NCBI GenBank assembly: GCA_016741995.1 | Contig: JACVCO010000004.1 | Location: 62,001-126,000 of the forward strand | DNA from: Hydrogenophaga sp. | GTDB lineage: Bacteria > Pseudomonadota > Gammaproteobacteria > Burkholderiales > Burkholderiaceae_C | Direction of reading: 5' to 3' | Length of the DNA stretch: 64,000 nucleotides | Shown here: positions 6,380-63,856 of the stretch, one piece after another | Layout of the letters: each line of letters starts with the position of its first letter | Position numbering within the stretch: the stretch's first letter is position 1 | Translations under genes and position numbers: made by a program | The notes under the pieces: model-generated | What the model was told of the DNA's origin: nothing | The model's input: the letters and a program-made list of their open reading frames with translations, nothing else | The model's database searches: none

Positions 6380-7936
6380 ATGAACCTGGCCCATCTGCTG
6401 GCGCGCGACGCCGCGCGCGCGCCCGACCGCCCCACGCTGTTCGATGGCACGCGCTGCGTGGCCAGCGCTGCGCAGTGGGCGGCGCGCAGTGCCCGGCTGG
6501 CGCAGGCGCTGCACTCGCGCGGCATCGCGCCGGGCGACCGGGTGCTGCTCTTCATGCGCAACCACCCGCGCTACCTGGAACTGCTGTTCGGCCTCTGGTG
6601 GGCGGGGGCGGTGGCGGTGCCGGTCAACGCCAAGCTGCACCCGGCCGAGCTGCGCTGGATCGCCGACAACGCCCAGGCCGCGCTGGCCTTCGTCACGCGC
6701 GACGTGTGGCCCGAGGGCGAGGCGCTGGGCGACGTGCCCGTGCTCGACGCGCTGGGCGACGACACCACCGCACTGCTCGAAGCCGGCGAGCCCGCCGCCA
6801 TCACCGAACGCGCCCCCGGCGACACCGCCTGGCTGTTCTACACCAGCGGCACCACCGGCCGGCCCAAGGGCGTGATGATCACGCACCGCAACCTCATGGC
6901 CATGGGCCTCACGTACTTCAACGACGTGGACGCCATCGCCCCGGGCGACACCATCGCCTACGCCGCGCCCATGTCGCACGGCGCCGGCATCTACGCCGTT
7001 CCGCACCTCATGGCGGGCGCGCGCCACGCGGTGCCGGCCTCGGGCGGCTTCGACGCCGCCGAGCTGCACGCGCTGGGCCTGGCGCTCGGCCCGCTCTCGC
7101 TGTTCGCGGCGCCCACCATCGTCAAGCGCCTCGTCGACCACGCCGAGGCGCAGGGCCACGGGCCGGCGCAGGCCGCAGCCGCGTACAAGACCATCGTCTA
7201 CGGCGGCGCGCCCATGTACGAGGCCGACATCCGCCGCGCGTTGCGGCTGATGGGCCCGCGCTTCGTGCAGATCTACGGCCAGGGCGAAACGCCCATGACC
7301 GGCACCGCGCTCTCGCGCGCCGTGCTGATGGACGAGGCCCACCCACAGTACGCGGAGCGCGTCGCCTCGGTGGGCGTGGCGCAAACGCCGGTGCGCGTGC
7401 GCGTGGCCGGGTCCGACGGCCAGCCGCTGCCCGCGGGCGCCGTGGGCGAGGTGCTGATCCAGGGCGACACCGTGATGGCCGGCTACTGGCGCAACCCCGA
7501 GGCCACGGCCAGCGCCCTTCGCGGCGGGTGGCTCTGGACCGGCGACATGGGTGCGCTGGACGCGCACGGTTTCCTCACGCTCAAGGACCGCAGCAAGGAT
7601 CTGATCATCAGCGGCGGCTCCAACATCTACCCGCGCGAGGTCGAGGAGGCGCTGCTCACCGCACCCGGCGTGGCCGAGGTGGCGGTGGTGGGGGCGCACG
7701 ACCCGGAGTGGGGCGAGGTGGTGGTGGCCTTCGTGGTGATGCAGCCCGGGCAACCCGGCCGCCCGGGCGATGCCGCCGCGCTGGACGCCCATTGCCTTGG
7801 GTGCATTGCGCGCTTCAAGCGGCCCAAGCGTTACGTGTTTGTGGAAACCCTGCCCAAGAACAACTACGGCAAGGTCCTCAAGACCGCCTTGCGCGAGCGC
7901 CTGGCGGCCGGGGAGGGCGACCGTGAGCGCGTCTGA
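6380..7936 (+). CDS. AMP-binding acyl-CoA ligase
   Basis: 518 residues of the ANL superfamily, which activates a carboxylic acid as acyl-AMP and then forms the CoA thioester. The ATP P-loop YTSGTTGRPKG lies near residues 154-164, the adenylate-binding core is IYGQGETPMTG, and the hinge and C-terminal domain start at DRSKDLIISGG. The catalytic Lys is in NNYGKVLKTALRE near the C terminus. The ATG at 6380 follows AAGGAGA by 8 bases. The acid substrate (fatty, aryl or dicarboxylic) cannot be read from the sequence. A short DUF4124 gene follows after 49 bases. Confidence 0.88.
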   Translation: MNLAHLLARDAARAPDRPTLFDGTRCVASAAQWAARSARLAQALHSRGIAPGDRVLLFMRNHPRYLELLFGLWWAGAVAVPVNAKLHPAELRWIADNAQAALAFVTRDVWPEGEALGDVPVLDALGDDTTALLEAGEPAAITERAPGDTAWLFYTSGTTGRPKGVMITHRNLMAMGLTYFNDVDAIAPGDTIAYAAPMSHGAGIYAVPHLMAGARHAVPASGGFDAAELHALGLALGPLSLFAAPTIVKRLVDHAEAQGHGPAQAAAAYKTIVYGGAPMYEADIRRALRLMGPRFVQIYGQGETPMTGTALSRAVLMDEAHPQYAERVASVGVAQTPVRVRVAGSDGQPLPAGAVGEVLIQGDTVMAGYWRNPEATASALRGGWLWTGDMGALDAHGFLTLKDRSKDLIISGGSNIYPREVEEALLTAPGVAEVAVVGAHDPEWGEVVVAFVVMQPGQPGRPGDAAALDAHCLGCIARFKRPKRYVFVETLPKNNYGKVLKTALRERLAAGEGDRERV

Positions 7937-56730: not shown

Positions 56731-56807
56731 GCGGCTGTAGCTCAGTTGGATAGAGTACTTGGCTACGAACCAAGGGGTCGTGGGTTCGAATCCTGCCAGC
56801 CGCGCCA
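56731..56807 (+). tRNA. tRNA-Arg (ACG)
   Basis: 77 bases with CCA. GCGGCTG pairs with CAGCCGC; the anticodon loop CTACGAA presents ACG; GGTTCGAATCC forms the T-arm. A TATACT -10-like box lies 11 bases upstream. The tyrosine integrase gene lies 41 bases beyond its 3' end, so this tRNA is the probable attachment site of the element to the right. Confidence 0.95.
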
Positions 56808-56828
56808 CTTTTTACGAAGTAGATCAAC
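56770..56828. other. Probable attachment junction of the integrative element
   Basis: The 3' half of tRNA-Arg (from about 56770 to 56807) is the usual crossover region for tyrosine integrases that are encoded next to a tRNA. The other junction is outside the window, so the core repeat cannot be delimited. Placement is inference. Confidence 0.4.
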
Positions 56829-56860
56829 GGCCTAGAGATGCCAGTCTCTAGGCCGCTTTT
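56829..56860 (+). terminator. Hairpin terminator after tRNA-Arg
   Basis: A 10-base perfect stem GGCCTAGAGA / TCTCTAGGCC with a 6-base loop, then GCTTTTCTTT on the plus strand. The stem overlaps the last codons of the minus-strand integrase gene, whose stop codon (56848-56850) lies in the right arm. Confidence 0.8.
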
Positions 56861-58035
56861 CTTTGCTCGGGGACTTTTGGGGGATTGAGCCCCCGCGCCT
56901 CCTCTTGTTCGCGCTTCAACATCGCCAGGCTGCGGTTCCACCGTCCGCTGTCATCGCGGATCTTCTCAAGTGCGGCGTGCAACTCGACGATCTGCGCCAC
57001 GCTGTAGTGCCTGGTCATCGTCGTCGTCACGTGCCACAGCACGTCGGCGATCGAACCCTCCGGCACTCCTGACTCTCGCAGCCGCATACCCACGGTGTGC
57101 CGCAGGTCGTGCACGTGCAGATCTCCGAGCCCCGCCGCCTTGCGCGCGCTCTGCCAGCCGTTGTTGTTCATCGTCTGGATCGGGCGGTAGGGCATCTCGG
57201 GCTGCTCGTCCATCTTCTTCACCCGCTCTCGCCGGTAGGCGAAGACATGGGTCGTGTGCATGCCCCTGCAGGACTCCACGACCGACTGCGCCACGCTGTT
57301 GCACACGATCACGCGTGAGCGCCTGCCGCCCTTGACGTGCTCGGGTGGCACATCGAAGACCGACACGCCCAGCTCAGGCACCTTGATCTCCCACGCCCAT
57401 TGCAGGTTGCAGACCACGTCGTCGCGCGCGCCGGTGTTGAGCACGAAGAGCGCCATGCGCTCCAGGTGCGCCGGCAAGGCGGGCATCAGCGTGCGCTGCT
57501 CGCTCCAGGTGATGGGTCGCGGAGGCCGCTGGTGGCCAACGAGCGGCAGCAGCGTGATTTTCGGCGCTTGCTCCAGCCAGGTCTTGCCCGTCACCTCATC
57601 CCGCCAGCACGTGGCCGCAAGGTTGAGGATGCGCCGCACTACGCCCAAGGCCAGGTTGATGGTCTTGTGCGCGAGGCCGGCCGCGAGCCGCGCGTTGACG
57701 TAGGGCGCCAACGTGCTGTCGTGGATCTGGTGCAGTGCGAGCGTTCCGATATGGGGCATCACCGACTTCAGGAGGTGGATCTCGGTTGCGATCGATGCCT
57801 TGGTCTGGTGTGTCAACAGGTAGTGCGCAGCCGCCTCGTCGAAGTTGCGGGCTGGGCGCGTGCCGTGCAGCAGCTCCGTGCGCTTCTTCGAGATTTCGCC
57901 GATCAGCCAGCCTTGCGCTTCGTCAGCAGACTCGAAGCCACGCTGGCGAAATCGGTGACCTTTGAACCACTTGTCGACCTGCCAGTACCCTGGCTTGCTG
58001 GGGTCCGGATAGACCCCGGGTGTTGTTCGGCCCAT
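56848..58035 (-). CDS. int: Tyrosine-type site-specific integrase
   Basis: 395 residues. The N-terminal arm-binding part starts RTTPGVYPDPSKPGYWQVDK. The catalytic residues are all present: Arg204 (TGARDDVV), His309 and Arg312 (HDLRHTVG), His335 (LWHVTTT) and Tyr344 (TRHYSV). It would insert and excise the element at the adjacent tRNA-Arg. Transcription runs towards the tRNA. Its first 133 bases overlap the upstream excisionase-like frame, so one of the two starts may be further in. Confidence 0.93.
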   Translation of the reverse strand: MGRTTPGVYPDPSKPGYWQVDKWFKGHRFRQRGFESADEAQGWLIGEISKKRTELLHGTRPARNFDEAAAHYLLTHQTKASIATEIHLLKSVMPHIGTLALHQIHDSTLAPYVNARLAAGLAHKTINLALGVVRRILNLAATCWRDEVTGKTWLEQAPKITLLPLVGHQRPPRPITWSEQRTLMPALPAHLERMALFVLNTGARDDVVCNLQWAWEIKVPELGVSVFDVPPEHVKGGRRSRVIVCNSVAQSVVESCRGMHTTHVFAYRRERVKKMDEQPEMPYRPIQTMNNNGWQSARKAAGLGDLHVHDLRHTVGMRLRESGVPEGSIADVLWHVTTTMTRHYSVAQIVELHAALEKIRDDSGRWNRSLAMLKREQEEARGLNPPKVPEQRKAA

Positions 58036-58328
58036 GGTTTGACTCCTTTCGAGAGGGCGGGCCGTCCGTTCCGGGGGCCATTGTGGGGGATCGCCGGTGC
58101 AGGGTCGTTCGCAGCCGTCGGCACTCCGGCGGCTTCAGCCTTGAACTCGTCGAACAGGCGGTCGAGATCCGCTCGATCGAAGAGCAGGCAGGCGCCCTGC
58201 TTGATGGCCACCAGGCGCGGGCGCCACTTCTCGTCGAAGGTGCGGCGCTTGACCCCCACGTAGGCCATAGCCTCGGCGTACGGCAGGCCCCTACGATAGA
58301 TCGCGTTGGCGTTCACGAACGAGGTCAT
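57903..58328 (-). CDS. Small DNA-binding, excisionase-like protein
   Basis: 141 residues in this reading. Residues 1-65 (ANAIYRRGLPYAEAMAYVGVK, WRPRLVAIKQGACLLFDR, LDRLFDEFKAEA) look like a short winged-helix/MerR-like excisionase or AlpA domain. The later part is Pro/Gly-rich and reads through the start of the integrase gene in another frame, so the true C terminus may not be functional. The ATG overlaps the methyltransferase stop (ATGA). The excisionase role is inferred from position between int and the other element genes. Confidence 0.6.
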   Translation of the reverse strand: MTSFVNANAIYRRGLPYAEAMAYVGVKRRTFDEKWRPRLVAIKQGACLLFDRADLDRLFDEFKAEAAGVPTAANDPAPAIPHNGPRNGRPALSKGVKPWAEQHPGSIRTPASQGTGRSTSGSKVTDFASVASSLLTKRKAG

Positions 58329-60958
58329 TTGGTTGAGTCGCCTGTGGTGGGGATGTCGAACAGCGACGGCATGTTGAACTCGCGTTCGGCCGCCTGGCAG
58401 TAGCCGATGCCATCGGCGAAGTAGCGCGGGCTCAGCTCGATGCCGTAGCCCTGGCGACCCGCCAGCACCGCGCGGTAGGGCACGGTCATCAGGCCGCCGA
58501 AGGGATCGAGCACCACCTCTTCGGGGTTGGTCCACTGCGCGATGGCGCGGTCGGCGATGTCGAACTGCATGGGGCACAGGTGCATCTCGCGCCCGGCCGC
58601 GCTCTGCGCACCGTTGAGCGTGCGCATGCGCGTGATCTCGGACCACACGTCATCGCGCCAGGACTGCGGCTGCAGCAGCATGAAGTCGGAAGGCAAGCGG
58701 CCCGCGGCCTCCAGCGTCTCGCCGATCCGCACATGGGTCTCGAAGTCGTAGACCTGCTCCAGGCTGAACTCGCGGAACCACTTGAAGATCACGTCGTGCG
58801 CCAGGTTGCGCAACTCGTCCGGCGTGAGCAGTCGGTTGCCTGCGGACCTGGTGAAGCCGTGGGCGTCGAGTTGCCAGCGCGCGCGGCTGTAGCCGGTGCC
58901 GGGCTTGATCGCCAGGTTGCGATCGAAGGGAACGGCGTTGCCCAGGTCGTCCAGACACAGCGGCTTCGACTTCAGTACTGGCTCGTCCGCGTAGCCCACG
59001 GTGTTGTCGGTGGCCGGCTTGCGGAACAGCAGCAGGTATTCCGGCATCCCGAAGCCCATCTTGCTGCCGTCCTTGCACTGTTCGCTCCAGCCCAGGCGGT
59101 AGGTCTGGTTGTTCTCGCGCACCACGTCGGTGACGATGGTCTTCATGCCCATGTAGCCCCAGCCGTGGCGCTGGAAGCGCGCGATTGCATCCGCGTGGAA
59201 GGGGTAGACGGTCTGGAAGCCGAAGCCCGTCATGCCCTTGGGCACGATGCGATCCTTCACGTGGATGGCAGCCAGGCGGCCAGGCGCCAGCACGCGCAGC
59301 AGCTCGGGGATCAGAAAATCCATCTGCTCCCAGAAGTGCGCGTTGGTGTCGGTGTGGCCGAAGTCCGCGTAGTTGGGCGAGTACTCGTACTGCGTCGAGA
59401 AGGGGATGCTGGTCAGGATCAGGCCCGCGTGGTCGGCGGGCATGCGACGCAGCTCGCGCACGCAGTCGTCGTTGACCAGGGTATGGTTGGCGCCCTGCAC
59501 CACCACGCGCTCGGCGACGCCCATGGCGCGCGTGAGGGTCTGTGCCATGGCGGCCTGCGACAGGCCAAACTCCTTGATGATCTCGCTCATGCGCTGCGCC
59601 AGTTCCTTGTGCTGGGCCCAGCGGCGTTCCAGCTCGCGCCGGACCTGGCGCTCGGCCTCGGTGTAGATGAGGTCGATCCGCACCTGCCGCTGCTGCAGGA
59701 AGCGGTATAGGCGGTGAATGGCCTGAATGAAGTCGTTGAACTTGAAGCCGATGCCCAGGAAGATGGCCCAGGCGCAGTGCCGCTGGAAGTTGCAGCCGCT
59801 GCCCAGCATCACGGGCTTGCCAGCCAGCTCGCGGTGCCGGCCCTGCGAGAAGCCGCGGATGCGATCGGCCTTGCTGTCGTCGTCGAGGCTGCCGTAGACG
59901 CTGACGACATCCGGGATCGCGCGCTCGATGGCCAGGCGCTCGGCCTCGAGGTCGTGCCAGAGGATGCGGTGCTCGTCGGGTGCCTCGGCACGCAGCTCCA
60001 TCATCTTGGCCACGCGCGCCGGAAGGCTCTCGCGCTTCTCGCGCGCGGCCTCGATGATCCCGATGGCCTCTTCCTTGAACATCAGGCCCTGGCCGGCGTA
60101 GTTCGTGCCCGCGGCCTCGTGGTCGCTCGGTATCTCGTGCCAGCGCACATCCAGCTCGGGCAGCTCGTAGCCATCGTCGCTGAAACCCAGGTCGGAGGGC
60201 TTCTGCACGAACAGGCCCCACGACGCGCACCACATCCAGAACTCGCGCTCTTTGTGCGGGTGGATGGTCAGCTCGTCGGCCTTCTCGCTGTTGCGCTTGA
60301 AGAAGCGGGTCTTGGCCTGGCTGACGTCCATGATCCCCAGGAACGCGGCATAGGCCAGCAACTCGACGTACTCATTGGGGCTGGGCGTGGCCGTGGCCAC
60401 GAACCGGTACCGCACGCCAGCGCTGCGCACGCGCGCATCCATGGTCTTGTAGTCGCCGGCGAATAGGCCCATGAACTCCCGGAAGGTCTTGGTGCCGCCG
60501 AAGCCGCGAAGGCAGGCCGCCTCGTCCAGGCTGGCCACGCTGAACGCGCGCGGATCGAGCTTGCCGTCGCGCACGGTCTCGTAATTCGTGAGGTAGATAC
60601 CCTCGGGGTCGTCGCATTCCTCGATGCGGCGGATGAACTTCACCTTAACGCCTAGCAGGGCGGCGTCGGCCTCGAACTCCTGCAACACGCCCAGCGGGAT
60701 GACGATCAACGCCATGCCGCCAGCCTTGGCGCGCGTGATGCGCACCACCTCCAACTGGATCAGGGTCTTGCCCAGGCCAAACGCCGCGAAGATGGCGCGC
60801 TGCCCGCCCATCACCGCCCAGCACACGATGGCCACCTGGTGAGGCTTTAGCAGTGGATTGACCTCGTGCGGCTCGCACACAAAGCCGTGAGCGTCAGCCA
60901 TGGTGACCTTCGCTCGCAGGAACTGCGAATAGGCATCGGCCGGTGCGGCGCGGGTCAT
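58325..60958 (-). CDS. Fused helicase-like and DNA methyltransferase protein
   Basis: 877 residues. The N-terminal part (1-440) is an SF2 helicase-like module: Walker A FGLGKT (60-65), LDEAACL (144-150), ATATPSPN (188-195) and a motif VI-like IHRLYRFLQ (near 415). The C-terminal part has methyltransferase motif IV TSIPFSTQYEY (517-527) and, further on, motif I LDPFGG with GIELSP (819-845), the beta-class order for N4-cytosine or N6-adenine enzymes. Motif IV departs from the usual D/S-PP-Y. Such fusions are frequent in phages, where they protect phage DNA or act against host restriction. Start MTRAAP overlaps the RT stop by 4 bases. Confidence 0.82.
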   Translation of the reverse strand: MTRAAPADAYSQFLRAKVTMADAHGFVCEPHEVNPLLKPHQVAIVCWAVMGGQRAIFAAFGLGKTLIQLEVVRITRAKAGGMALIVIPLGVLQEFEADAALLGVKVKFIRRIEECDDPEGIYLTNYETVRDGKLDPRAFSVASLDEAACLRGFGGTKTFREFMGLFAGDYKTMDARVRSAGVRYRFVATATPSPNEYVELLAYAAFLGIMDVSQAKTRFFKRNSEKADELTIHPHKEREFWMWCASWGLFVQKPSDLGFSDDGYELPELDVRWHEIPSDHEAAGTNYAGQGLMFKEEAIGIIEAAREKRESLPARVAKMMELRAEAPDEHRILWHDLEAERLAIERAIPDVVSVYGSLDDDSKADRIRGFSQGRHRELAGKPVMLGSGCNFQRHCAWAIFLGIGFKFNDFIQAIHRLYRFLQQRQVRIDLIYTEAERQVRRELERRWAQHKELAQRMSEIIKEFGLSQAAMAQTLTRAMGVAERVVVQGANHTLVNDDCVRELRRMPADHAGLILTSIPFSTQYEYSPNYADFGHTDTNAHFWEQMDFLIPELLRVLAPGRLAAIHVKDRIVPKGMTGFGFQTVYPFHADAIARFQRHGWGYMGMKTIVTDVVRENNQTYRLGWSEQCKDGSKMGFGMPEYLLLFRKPATDNTVGYADEPVLKSKPLCLDDLGNAVPFDRNLAIKPGTGYSRARWQLDAHGFTRSAGNRLLTPDELRNLAHDVIFKWFREFSLEQVYDFETHVRIGETLEAAGRLPSDFMLLQPQSWRDDVWSEITRMRTLNGAQSAAGREMHLCPMQFDIADRAIAQWTNPEEVVLDPFGGLMTVPYRAVLAGRQGYGIELSPRYFADGIGYCQAAEREFNMPSLFDIPTTGDSTK

Positions 60959-62331
60959 GTACGCCTCCTGTAGATCTTGCTGAGATCGCCCTTGATGCTG
61001 TGCCCGCGCCTCAGCAATGCTCGCGCCACGACGGCCTGCTCGCGATGGCTCGCGCCCGCTTGGCGCACCAGGCCCAGCAGGCTGTTGCCGGTGGCAAACA
61101 CCTCTTCGGCAGGCTGGCGCTCAAGGCGGTGGAGAGCGGCCTGCAGGGTGCGCAGGCGCGTCGTGCGCCGCCACGGCTTGATGACGTGGCCAACGAAGTC
61201 CACGCCGCGCTCCACGGGCTGCAGGATGGTCTTGGTGGGGTTCACGCGCACCGCCAGGCGCTCGATCACGAAGGCCTCGATGCGCTCGCGGGCCGCGTTG
61301 AGCCACTGCGGCGACGTGTGCACCAGCACGAAGTCATCCACGTAGCGCACGTAGTGGCGCGCGCCCACCTGGTGCTTCACGAACTGGTCGAGCGCATTCA
61401 GGTAGACGTTGGCAAAGAACTGGCTGGAGAGGTTGCCGATCGGCAGGCCGCAGTGGGCCGGCGCGTTGGCCAGGCGCTTGTGCGTGGGCACGCGGGCCTG
61501 CAGATCTGCGCGGCCGCGCAGCTCAAAGTTGGTCCGCGGGTCGTGGAACAGGATCGTGTGCGCCAGCTCGCGCCAGAACGGCTCATGAACCTTCGTGTCC
61601 AGTAGGCCGGCCAGGATGGTCTTGTCGATGCTGACGAAGAAGTTGGCCAGATCCAGCTTGAGGTAGTGCGCCGGCCGACCCCAGTTCTCCGTGGCCGAGC
61701 GGATGTGTGACTCAAGACGCTGGGCGCCGTAGAGGGTGCCGCGGCCCGGGATGCACGCGCAGCTCTCCACGCTGAACGACGCGTGGAAACGCGGCGCGAT
61801 GCGTGCGTAGAGCAGGTGGTGCACGATGCGGTCGCGAAACTCGGCCGCCCACACCTCGCGTGGCTTGGGCCGTGTGATGACGAAGCAGATCGAGCGGCCC
61901 GGTCGGTAGGTGCCGGCGAGCAGCTCGTCGTACAGGTCGCACAGGTTGCGCTCCAGGTGGGCCTCGAAGGCGAGGGCGCTGCCGCTGTTGCGCTTGTTGC
62001 GCCGGCAGTCGCGCCAGGCGAGCACCAGCTCGTGAAAGCTCAGTGGAGTGGAATCTGCGGACGAGCCGAACGCGGCCCTCGAACTTCTTGTCGTTGTTGT
62101 TCTGGTTGCCGTTGTTGAAGTTCTGGTTCCAGGCGTTGTTCTCGGAGTACTGCGTGTGCTCGCGCTATCCACGTCGCCCTGCCGGAGGCCTTGGCCGACC
62201 AGCTGGGGGACTGCACCGGACCGCACCCGCCCGCTGGCGGGGGTCTCCGTGGTGTGCATGGCCGTGGCCTTGTGGGCCAGGGGCGCGACCAGATTCACAT
62301 TGCGCACGGGCATGGGGGCCTTGACCGTCAT
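60955..62331 (-). CDS. DGR reverse transcriptase
   Basis: 458 residues from the ATG that overlaps the avd stop (ATGA). The RT domain begins near residue 100 (LAWRDCRRNKRNSGSALAF). Motif A is YLKLDLANFFVSIDK (Asp near 227), the DGR-type motif is IGNLSSQFFANVYL (near 298; SQ in place of the QG of other RTs), and the catalytic motif is YVDDFVL (330-333). This enzyme copies template-repeat RNA with errors at adenines. The first 100 residues have coding-like GC3, yet the template repeat is read out of frame inside them. A GTG at 62025 just after the repeat is an alternative start of 356 residues. Confidence 0.93.
   Translation of the reverse strand: MTVKAPMPVRNVNLVAPLAHKATAMHTTETPASGRVRSGAVPQLVGQGLRQGDVDSASTRSTPRTTPGTRTSTTATRTTTTRSSRAAFGSSADSTPLSFHELVLAWRDCRRNKRNSGSALAFEAHLERNLCDLYDELLAGTYRPGRSICFVITRPKPREVWAAEFRDRIVHHLLYARIAPRFHASFSVESCACIPGRGTLYGAQRLESHIRSATENWGRPAHYLKLDLANFFVSIDKTILAGLLDTKVHEPFWRELAHTILFHDPRTNFELRGRADLQARVPTHKRLANAPAHCGLPIGNLSSQFFANVYLNALDQFVKHQVGARHYVRYVDDFVLVHTSPQWLNAARERIEAFVIERLAVRVNPTKTILQPVERGVDFVGHVIKPWRRTTRLRTLQAALHRLERQPAEEVFATGNSLLGLVRQAGASHREQAVVARALLRRGHSIKGDLSKIYRRRT
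62052..62156 (-). repeat. DGR template repeat (TR)
   Basis: 105 bases, matched without gaps by the variable repeat at 62729-62833 and, over the 100 bases 62057-62156, by 63281-63380. On the coding strand it is dominated by AAC codons, so adenine changes can give 15 residues without a stop codon. Read in frame with the targets it would encode AWNQNFNNGNQNNN followed by KFEGRVRLVR. It lies between avd and the RT core, the usual template position. I count 14 differences from VR1, all at A, and 13 from VR2, 12 of them at A. Confidence 0.96.
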
Positions 62332-62690
62332 GCTGCAGGCGCCTTCGACTGAGACGATTTCAACCACCCGCCACCCTGCTTGCCGATGCTGTCGAGCAGC
62401 TGCACCGAGTCGGACCACAGCTTGGGTGAGACGGCCTTCATGTCGAAGCCCACGCGCAGCAGCACGGTCGCTGCGCGCTGGCGCGCGAGCAGATCCCGGA
62501 TGTGGGCCGCGCGCTCGTGGCCGCGCGTGGCGTTGGCCATGGCCATGAGGCTGACCATCTCGGTGCAGTGGGCGGTGATCTTCTCGCCCAGGTGGCGCTT
62601 GTGCGCCCTGGGCATCTGCGTCTGCACGTTGAAGGCCAGCTGCACGAGGTCGCAGCCACGCTTGTAGATCGGCAACTCGGTGTGGAGCAT
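62328..62690 (-). CDS. avd: DGR accessory variability determinant (Avd-like)
   Basis: 120 residues, all helical, in the four-helix-bundle pattern of bAvd: LPIYKRGCDLVQLAFNVQ, HLGEKITAHCTEMVSLMAMA, HERAAHIRDLLARQRAATVLL and WSDSVQLLDSIGKQGGGW. Avd forms a pentamer that binds RT and template RNA and is required for mutagenic retrohoming. It sits directly upstream of the template repeat. The start follows 28 bases after the stop of the first target gene. Confidence 0.9.
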   Translation of the reverse strand: MLHTELPIYKRGCDLVQLAFNVQTQMPRAHKRHLGEKITAHCTEMVSLMAMANATRGHERAAHIRDLLARQRAATVLLRVGFDMKAVSPKLWSDSVQLLDSIGKQGGGWLKSSQSKAPAA

Positions 62691-62718
62691 CGGGGTGGTG
62701 GCTTAAAGGATCAAAGGA

Positions 62719-63225
62719 TCAAAGCGGCAATCTGCGGACGAGCCGAACGCGGCCCTCGAACTCCTTGCCGTCGCTGAGCTGGTCGCCGTAGCCGAAGCCC
62801 TGGCTCCAGGCGTGGTTCTCGGAGTACTGCGTGCTGGTCCAGTGCCACTTGCTGGTGTCGAAGTGCTCGCGCACGTGGGCGTACATCAGGGCCGACTCGA
62901 AGCGCGTGGGCATGCGCGCGCCATCGGTGCGGCCCTCGCTGAGCTTCATGGCGCTGTCCCAGTCCAGGGCGCCCGGCTGCTCGGCCAGCAGCACCAGGTG
63001 CGCATCGGGCGCACCGGCTTCGCCGCGCGAGATGCCGGCGTAGACGCTGTTCTCGATGCCGGGCCAGGGTGCGCCGATCGCAGGGATGGCGGCGGGCGCC
63101 GCGGGCGCGGTGGATACCGGTTCGTCGGCGACGAAGCGTGGATCCAGTGATCGGTAGAGCGCGGCCATGATGGCCTGCGAACGGGGTGTGAGCTGCAGCT
63201 CAACGTCAACGGTGATGGCGGACAT
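62719..63225 (-). CDS. DGR target protein 1 (C-type-lectin/DUF1566-like)
   Basis: 168 residues. N-terminal 60 residues are Pro/Ala-rich. The rest is a short DUF1566/Lcl-like C-type-lectin fold (ISRGEAGAPDAHLVLLAEQ, LDWDSAMKLSEGRTDGARMPTRFE, KWHWTSTQYSEN) ending in the variable repeat and VRLVRRLPL. The fold displays the diversified residues on its surface. Residues differing from the template translation are H, S, G, G, Y, D, L, S, D, plus D to G and K to E. The ligand is unknown; no tail-fibre sequence is seen. ATG 63225 has GGAGGCACGC upstream. Confidence 0.88.
   Translation of the reverse strand: MSAITVDVELQLTPRSQAIMAALYRSLDPRFVADEPVSTAPAAPAAIPAIGAPWPGIENSVYAGISRGEAGAPDAHLVLLAEQPGALDWDSAMKLSEGRTDGARMPTRFESALMYAHVREHFDTSKWHWTSTQYSENHAWSQGFGYGDQLSDGKEFEGRVRLVRRLPL
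62729..62833 (-). repeat. DGR variable repeat 1 (VR1)
   Basis: 105 bases aligned without gaps to the template repeat. I count 14 substitutions, all where the template has A on the coding strand: nine AAC codons changed, GAC to GGC, AAG to GAG. The GC-rich end (62729-62760) is identical to the template and corresponds to the initiation-of-mutagenic-homing region. Confidence 0.96.
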
Positions 63226-63259
63226 GTGCGTGCCTCCTGCGTTCAAGGGATTGAAGGAT

Positions 63260-63856
63260 TCAAGGATTGAGGTGAATCAAGCGGACGAGCCGAACGCGGC
63301 CCTCGAACTTCTTGTCGTCGTCGAGCTGGTAGCCGTAGTAGGAGAGCTGGCCCCAGGCGTAGTTCTCGGAGTACTGCGTGGACGACCAGTACCAAGCCTC
63401 ATCGAAGGCTTGCGGGCTGCCCTCGCGGAAGGCCTCAACGCTGGTCTGCACCGGCAGCGCTTCGGCGTAGGGGTAACCCACCGGCACGCTGCTGGGGTTG
63501 TCGCCGTCGCGGAAGCCGCCGTAGGTCTTGTAGCCGGTCGGCTTGAGGTGGCGGTAGCCGAGTTCGAGCACGTCGCGAGCGGGGATGCACCAGTCGCGGT
63601 GGCCACCGATCTCGCGATCGAGCGCCCAGGCGGCGATGGGGCTGCCGGCCGCGGCCATGGCGCGCGTGTTGTCCATGCTGTGCCAGCAGTTCGTGCCGGG
63701 CACGAGCTGGTACTCGGGCAGCCACATGCCTTCGGTTTCGCCGTCGGCTTTGGGCGCCCACACGACTGCCAGGCGCTTGGCGCCGCCGTGGCTCACGATT
63801 TGGCCGCCGTAGAAGCCGCCCTCGAAGGGTTGGCCGATGTCAGGAAGAGTGATCAT
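63260..63856 (-). CDS. DGR target protein 2 (C-type-lectin/DUF1566-like)
   Basis: 198 residues. The N-terminal part (GQPFEGGFYGGQIVSHGGAK, LAVVWAPKADGETEGMWLPE) resembles a DUF1566-type beta domain. The C-terminal part (AWALDREIGGHRDWCIPARDVLEL, YWSSTQYSEN) continues into the second variable repeat and VRLVRLIHL. Diversified residues are Y, G, L, Y, Y, Y, L, D, D, plus one Phe to Ser change. Its gene ends 34 bases before target gene 1. ATG 63856 lies in an ATGA overlap with the upstream frame. Confidence 0.88.
   Translation of the reverse strand: MITLPDIGQPFEGGFYGGQIVSHGGAKRLAVVWAPKADGETEGMWLPEYQLVPGTNCWHSMDNTRAMAAAGSPIAAWALDREIGGHRDWCIPARDVLELGYRHLKPTGYKTYGGFRDGDNPSSVPVGYPYAEALPVQTSVEAFREGSPQAFDEAWYWSSTQYSENYAWGQLSYYGYQLDDDKKFEGRVRLVRLIHLNP
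63281..63380 (-). repeat. DGR variable repeat 2 (VR2)
   Basis: 100 bases matching TR positions 62057-62156 without gaps. I count 13 differences, 12 at template adenines and one T to C (TTC to TCC). Conserved flanks are GCGGACGAGCCGAACGCGGC at one end and the CTCGGAGTACTGCGTG stretch at the other. Confidence 0.96.

Follow-up and report, generated by a model that had tools for sequence, protein, structure and literature searches.

To our knowledge, the start and stop of reverse transcription in diversity-generating retroelements (DGRs) are known in detail for that of Bordetella phage BPP-1 only. In BPP-1, avd is followed directly by the template repeat (TR), a 144-nt spacer with the Rfam Phage_DGR RNA and the reverse transcriptase (RT) gene brt, and there is one target, a tail fibre. 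The DGR described here lies on the minus strand of a 64,000-nucleotide stretch (hereafter the window, C23:62001-126000, where C23 is the contig) of a Hydrogenophaga sp. genome (3.57 Mb, 82% complete). It shares with BPP-1 a related RT (32.5% identity to brt in tblastn, E 1e-38), Avd, a TR and adenine-specific variation of a C-terminal variable repeat (VR). Unlike BPP-1, it has a structured RNA, RT-15 (Rfam RF03018), 5′ of the TR, and no structured 3′ spacer was detected.

Burkholderia phage Magia (MT701587), whose RT is 62% identical, has the same gene order: two VR-bearing genes beside avd, then avd, RT-15, TR, RT and integrase. A third VR-bearing gene of Magia, of lectin-fold type, lies remote from the others near the repressor gene, and the RT coding sequence of this phage is annotated from upstream of the TR. 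The two systems differ in host and sequence, and the Magia record lists candidate DGR targets based on HHpred and leaves the template stem described below unmentioned.

Retrons (msr-msd-RT) provide the other comparison. As described in PMC6868368, their complementary 5′ msr and 3′ msd ends form a priming stem that encloses structured RNA and template, with a G positioned either at the 5′ strand or immediately 3′ of it. The element in the window has the same shape, and in its RT-15-bearing clade the 5′ strand has a conserved G at its inner end and the 3′ strand adjoins the start of the template. Unlike retrons, it has a DGR-like RT, Avd, TR, VRs and predicted adenine mutagenesis, and a second group of DGRs with the stem (F2-like, below) is without this G. 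By analogy, the element may resemble a retron in its predicted working, but it is no retron. We consider it probable that this DGR rewrites three targets by adenine-mutagenic copying from a template clamped, as in retrons, by a stem between RT-15 and the TR 3′ end, at which cDNA would start.

The stem between RT-15 and the template end

RT-15 matches the locus at full length (161.3 bits against a gathering threshold of 82, E 1.1e-39; Rfam covariance-model scan). The Rfam model extends no further than the TR, and a conserved stretch ending AAUCUGG (a1) is unpaired in it; this stretch is complementary to the 3′ boundary of the TR, and its partner strand (a2) lies beyond the model. In the Hydrogenophaga locus, seven a1 bases (62296-62290) pair with a2, and GAAUCUG/CAGAUUC is the only helix of at least seven pairs with at most one G-U in the compared ranges.

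RT matches were collected from 167 loci (TR found in 158), of which 151 are unique (TR found in 142). The stem could be assessed in 137 of these 142 TR-bearing loci, all but L035, L036, L042, L110 and L113, with a1 and a2 placed by alignment-based anchors. Pairs 1-5 each form in at least 131 of the 137 loci (pair 2 is U-A in 133 and C-G in 4), and pair 6 forms in 103. Pair 7 is Watson-Crick in 131 (G-C 85, U-A 30, C-G 10, A-U 6) and G-U in 2. An unpaired pair 6 (A-C, G-G or A-G) is located mid-stem and flanked by well-paired neighbours. Among 80 distinct a1/a2 combinations, pair 7 is paired in 77 versus 36.2 with a2 shuffled, and none of 20000 shuffles reaches the observed value. An RT tree of 136 tips shows 18 changes of the a1 base of pair 7, 16 of the a2 base and 18 of the pair as a whole, so both sides change together. 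An alignment of 63 sequences gives 53 cells changed on both sides versus 16.9 shuffled, by a tool count. In the same sequences the stem is 88.6% paired versus 24-46% when slid, and the helices of the RT-15 model are similar in this respect (91.6% paired). RNAalifold also recovers the stem unprompted. We regard the a1/a2 stem as very likely real.

The stem also marks a change in the similarity of TR and VR. Over 292 VRs in the 137 loci, TR-VR identity is ~1.00 for the 14 bases before a2 and runs 0.98, 0.91, 0.92, 0.66, 0.61, 0.49, 0.37 and 0.13 through the first eight a2 bases (286 of the 292 VRs reach a2). Directly after a1, a G is present in 137/137 loci. We infer that the RT-15 clade primes at this stem. 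In the proposed mechanism, the avd-(RT-15)-TR-RT transcript would be both mRNA and template, RT-Avd would bind RT-15, and the a1/a2 stem would set the template 3′ end. The 2′-OH of the G after a1, or of an adjacent base, would prime cDNA synthesis across from the TR base that immediately precedes a2, and cDNA carrying errors at adenines would replace the VRs.

RT-15 lies 5′ of the TR in 11/11 sources scanned and is annotated in the record of phage Cruim01; in six named phage records only a few bases separate its end from the beginning of the TR. Among 399 genomes of the order, RT-15 is above cut-off in nine, with an RT relative directly downstream in 9/9, and below cut-off in three more, with an RT relative in none of the three.

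Stems at matching places were also found in F2-like DGRs, named after Bacteroides phage F2/F4, whose RTs are 36-39% identical to the RT of the window. Like the present element, this group has an interval of RNA on the 5′ side of the TR, little distance between TR and RT, and a covarying stem around the TR. It differs in having no Rfam match, in its RT starting 29-51 nt after the TR and in the missing G. A single-protein scan found 3 relatives and an alignment scan 41; 38 are unique and 36 testable, with 28 distinct combinations. The stems, such as TTTCCGTAA/TTACGGAAA, GTTATCTG/CAGATAAC and ATCTGTAAA/TTTACAGAT, differ in their letters from those of the RT-15 clade. The mean best stem score is 7.99 versus 6.49 with swapped partners (0/20000 reach the observed value), and 26 of the 28 combinations score at least 6.25. 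TR-VR identity ends 1-3 bases before the stem region (33 VRs, 31 loci). The F2-like RT begins only beyond the TR, so the presence of a stem does not require TR and RT to overlap.

Repeats, targets and reverse transcriptase

A sequence-only reading of this DNA had proposed a minus-strand cassette of targets with C-terminal VRs, avd, TR and RT, and the open reading frames bear out both order and strand. The gapless alignment of TR, VR1 and VR2 that it described was reproduced by computed alignment and by an independent repeat finder, which reports three copies in register of a 114-nt repeat at 62057-62170, 62734-62847 and 63281-63394. Its two targets are correct for the window, whereas the prophage as a whole has three. 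When the TR was searched as DNA against its own genome, a third VR was found past the window end at C23:131326-131430 (window-equivalent 69326-69430), ~6 kb upstream of the cassette; the next best match in this 82% complete genome has E 0.03. The third target stands apart from the cassette near a repressor gene, and the VR-bearing lectin-fold gene of Magia is similarly placed.

Mismatches between TR and VRs were counted over 99 nt, from 62156 down to 62058 (up to the stem), with hypergeometric P values. TR adenines account for 12 of 13 mismatches in VR1 (P 2.5e-6), 14/14 in VR2 (P 1.2e-8) and 15/17 in VR3 (P 2.3e-7). Pooled over the three VRs, 41/44 differences are at TR adenines (to G 25, T 10, C 6), so the enrichment on which the sequence-only reading had staked its interpretation is present. 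Of the three other differences, VR1 has one and VR3 two; of the 32 adenines in the TR, 20 are changed in one or more VRs. Each VR sits at the C-terminus of an open target gene. All three targets match Lcl_C (PF07603), each below cut-off, and their C-type lectin fold is predicted only; a search of solved structures with target 1 gave no relative at E < 0.03. The prophage DGR probably rewrites three small proteins of predicted lectin fold at their C-termini.

The RT gene is the only one matching RVT_1 in the genome. Its product matches this Pfam family above cut-off, and both motifs noticed earlier, IGNLSSQ and YVDD, are present in the translation. The best solved relative is a 328-aa RT (PDB 8ub7, E 1.3e-41, 146.6 bits), which we take to be BPP-1 Brt because the length of Brt is the same. 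The best group II intron RT scores 40.8 bits and a chain named 'retron-type' 30.8 bits, and by these scores the RT does not fall with group II introns or retrons, the placement that would have spoken against a DGR. On the other hand, the best NCBIfam model is a group II RT, although the score of 79.9 bits falls well short of the 300-bit cut-off. Avd matches bAvd (Pfam PF22296) above cut-off and the PHROG 'Avd protein of DGR', and matches NCBIfam DivGenRetAVD below cut-off (47 vs 80 bits). Pairwise match scores thus support a DGR-type RT rather than a retron or group II RT, and the adenine-biased differences, the C-terminal VRs, Avd and the RT closest to 8ub7 and brt agree with the DGR identity given before.

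Traced backwards, the RT frame crosses the TR and reaches an ATG that shares bases with the stop codon of avd, and no ATG, GTG or TTG was found in this frame between the TR and the conserved core. Among the 142 TR-bearing loci, the frame is open through the whole TR in 96; in 44, by eye mostly Pseudomonas, a stop inside the TR closes the frame and a start lies inside the TR; the remaining 2 have a distant upstream TR. Any ATG, GTG or TTG between TR end and RT core was seen in only 19. RT translation therefore likely begins upstream of or inside the TR. The distance from a2 to the core varies from 14 to 58 nt, yet 135/137 loci keep one phase (exceptions L083 and L163). ATGA occurs at the avd stop in 45/139 loci, and its ATG is in the RT frame in 42/45, so RT translation may be coupled to avd, crossing RT-15. 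Annotated RT starts in named relatives lie upstream of or inside the TR in 2/5 (Magia, Cruim01) and later in 3/5 (Haboob, LPPA56, QDWS).

Several loci show variations of this arrangement. The RT frame in the window reads the TR in another phase than the VRs do, so that a Thr-rich stretch encoded by the TR precedes the RT core. The phase relative to the VR frame is single in 130/142 loci; the 12 exceptions mostly reflect an apparently wrong choice of VR frame. L163 and L083 are real exceptions: there the RT frame reads the TR in the frame used by the VR, and an ATG follows the TR in L083 but not in L163. L036 and L042 have 541-848 nt between the TR and the RT core downstream of it; the RT there has an ATG of its own and lacks the TR-encoded stretch. 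The annotated RT genes of phiARM81mr (L186), ACA1 (L187) and VP58.5 (L191) begin at the avd stop and continue across both TR and spacer; RT frames that include a TR therefore occur outside this clade as well. The overlap was dropped as the main novelty: these three outgroup records share it, and the DiGReF survey (PMC3521204) lists such TRs. The survey takes the layout (structural group 3) as irrelevant to mechanism, whereas the clade studied here keeps the overlap in one phase with a covarying stem within.

Table 1 Features of the DGR and its prophage. Positions are those of the window unless a contig or locus is named.
Feature	Position	Strand	Evidence or remark
Target 1, 198 aa from ATG	63260..63856	-	VR1 at C-terminus; weak Lcl_C/DUF1566-type match; phrog_4245 E 1.5e-24
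VR1	63276..63380	-	alignment to TR, repeat finder
Target 2, 168 aa from ATG	62719..63225	-	VR2 at C-terminus
VR2	62729..62833	-	alignment to TR, repeat finder
avd, 120 aa	62328..62690	-	PF22296 above cut-off, phrog_3206
RT-15 RNA (RF03018), full length	62153..62344	-	spans avd tail to TR start
a1, 5′ clamp-stem strand	62290..62299	-	unpaired in RT-15 model
G directly 3′ of a1, predicted priming base	62289	-	invariant in 137/137 loci; role predicted
TR, 105 nt	62052..62156	-	copied part predicted to end at 62058, just 5′ of a2
a2, 3′ clamp-stem strand	62048..62057	-	overlaps TR 3′ end and RT reading frame
RT reading frame, 458 aa	60955..62331	-	putative start ATG overlaps avd stop; core from ~62043
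Tyrosine integrase	56848..58035	-	same prophage end as DGR
Attachment-site repeat, tRNA-Arg 3′ end, 46 bases	56763..56808	+	recurs at C23:158782-158827
Third target, 172 aa	C23:131283-131801 = window-equivalent 69283-69801 = L002:11283-11801		VR3 at C-terminus; weak Lcl_C match

Weighing the proposed priming stem against other readings

Several observations weigh against priming at the a1/a2 stem. Pair 6 is unpaired in 34/137 loci, and pair 10 is unsupported. When the sequence of the Hydrogenophaga locus is folded alone, the stem appears only in the centroid and is absent from the minimum-energy structure, and the sequence is no more stable than its shuffles (z -0.25). In 133/292 VRs the equivalents of a2 still form at least 7 of the 8 pairs, so the stem alone does not separate TR from VR. 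The absence of a G after a1 in the F2-like group means that the primer base is not general, and BPP-1 uses a different solution, an adenine in the 3′ spacer, according to PMC12875486. As a sharp discriminator between TR and VR, the VR counterparts of a2 were set aside, the expectation being only partly true (5.84 of 8 pairs in VRs vs 7.53 in TRs). BPP-1 itself has an 8-bp complementarity between avd and the 3′ part of the TR (L185:7578-7585 and 7791-7798), which may be chance.

We consider it unlikely that the stem is real but regulatory, gating the RT translation start or marking a cleavage that frees the template while priming occurs elsewhere, for example at a nicked RNA 3′ end. This would fit the location of a2 inside the RT frame, with one a2-to-core phase, by which the stem touches translated sequence, and the ATGA whose ATG is in the RT frame. 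A regulatory stem, however, would not predict that the stem coincides with the end of TR-VR identity, and the F2-like group keeps its stem though its RT starts after the TR. That the element is a fossil, with parts intact by sequence, activity lost and old VR differences, seems quite improbable. The two non-adenine changes in the otherwise identical 3′ part of VR3 and the one in VR1 count in its favour, but RT, Avd, RT-15 and the stem are intact, VR2 differs from the TR at adenines exclusively, and the prophage retains its integrase, both attachment repeats and structural genes.

Very improbable in our view is an ordinary BPP-1-type DGR with a structured spacer and primer 3′ of the TR, inside the RT 5′ coding part, to which RT-15 would be unrelated. 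In 8/9 outgroup DGRs 135-320 nt separate the end of the TR from the RT core, and both Phage_DGR in BPP-1 and RT-14 in BalMu-1 are 3′ of the TR (an Rfam scan of the nine outgroup records gave no match in the other seven). In F2 the distance is 36 nt and in the RT-15 clade mostly 6-33 nt; in the window no structured spacer of the BPP-1 type was found between TR and RT, where the TR abuts the RT core, and RT-15 is 5′ in every source. We also considered a spacer hidden in the RT coding part, using same-codon conservation in 139 related RT genes (12-codon windows; a sample of 3000 out of 9320 sequence pairs). The first window, part of which coincides with TR and a2, is the only one to show raised conservation (ratio 0.34; next windows 1.12, 0.91, 1.06 and 0.97), so no hidden RNA element is apparent further into the RT gene, and this candidate was rejected.

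Prophage context and significance

The 46-base tRNA-Arg 3′-end repeat occurs at C23:118763-118808 and 158782-158827, bounding ~40 kb that encode an integrase, a helicase/methyltransferase, a ParB-like protein, repressor, primase, terminase, portal, capsid/protease, tape-measure and tail proteins. These repeats and genes identify the ~40 kb as a prophage in a tRNA-Arg gene. The DGR adjoins the integrase, and its three targets lie away from the tail genes, which occupy the opposite strand at C23:147-154 kb. An 877-aa protein at 58325-60958, matching phage DNA helicase and DNA methyltransferase families, overlaps the RT stop.

RT relatives are encoded by 381 viral-contig stretches and 105 species-genome stretches, of which the best 80 of each were retained. 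They also occur in 118 phage records, 8 of these at 60-80% identity, and in 7/100 genomes of relatives searched, the present genome counted. DUF1566-type targets and multiple VRs are already known for DGRs, as reported in PMC6642488. By its sequence the element is a genuine, common DGR type with three targets; as a DGR it is ordinary, with hundreds of relatives, and the new part is the template-RNA design. Our literature search found no paper linking RT-15 to DGR priming and none on a retron-like stem in DGRs; most subscription papers lay outside the search, and absence in print is not established.

More tentatively, at somewhat under even probability, we suggest that DGRs have two template-RNA designs: the known priming from a structured 3′ spacer, and a retron-like clamp of the template 3′ end shared by at least two distant groups. 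The latter design would combine a structured 5′ RNA, a stem clamp and 2′-OH priming next to the 5′ strand of the stem, with a conserved G in the RT-15 clade. The RT gene would start upstream of or inside its own template, one RNA serving as mRNA and template. If a large group of phage DGRs primes from such a clamp, the 3′-spacer model would not be general for DGRs, a role could be assigned to RT-15, and sequence alone would show where copied bases give way to uncopied ones. The two-design reading, if true, would tie the template RNAs of DGRs and retrons to one design, and it bears on the kinship of these RNAs and on finding template boundaries in uncharacterised DGRs.

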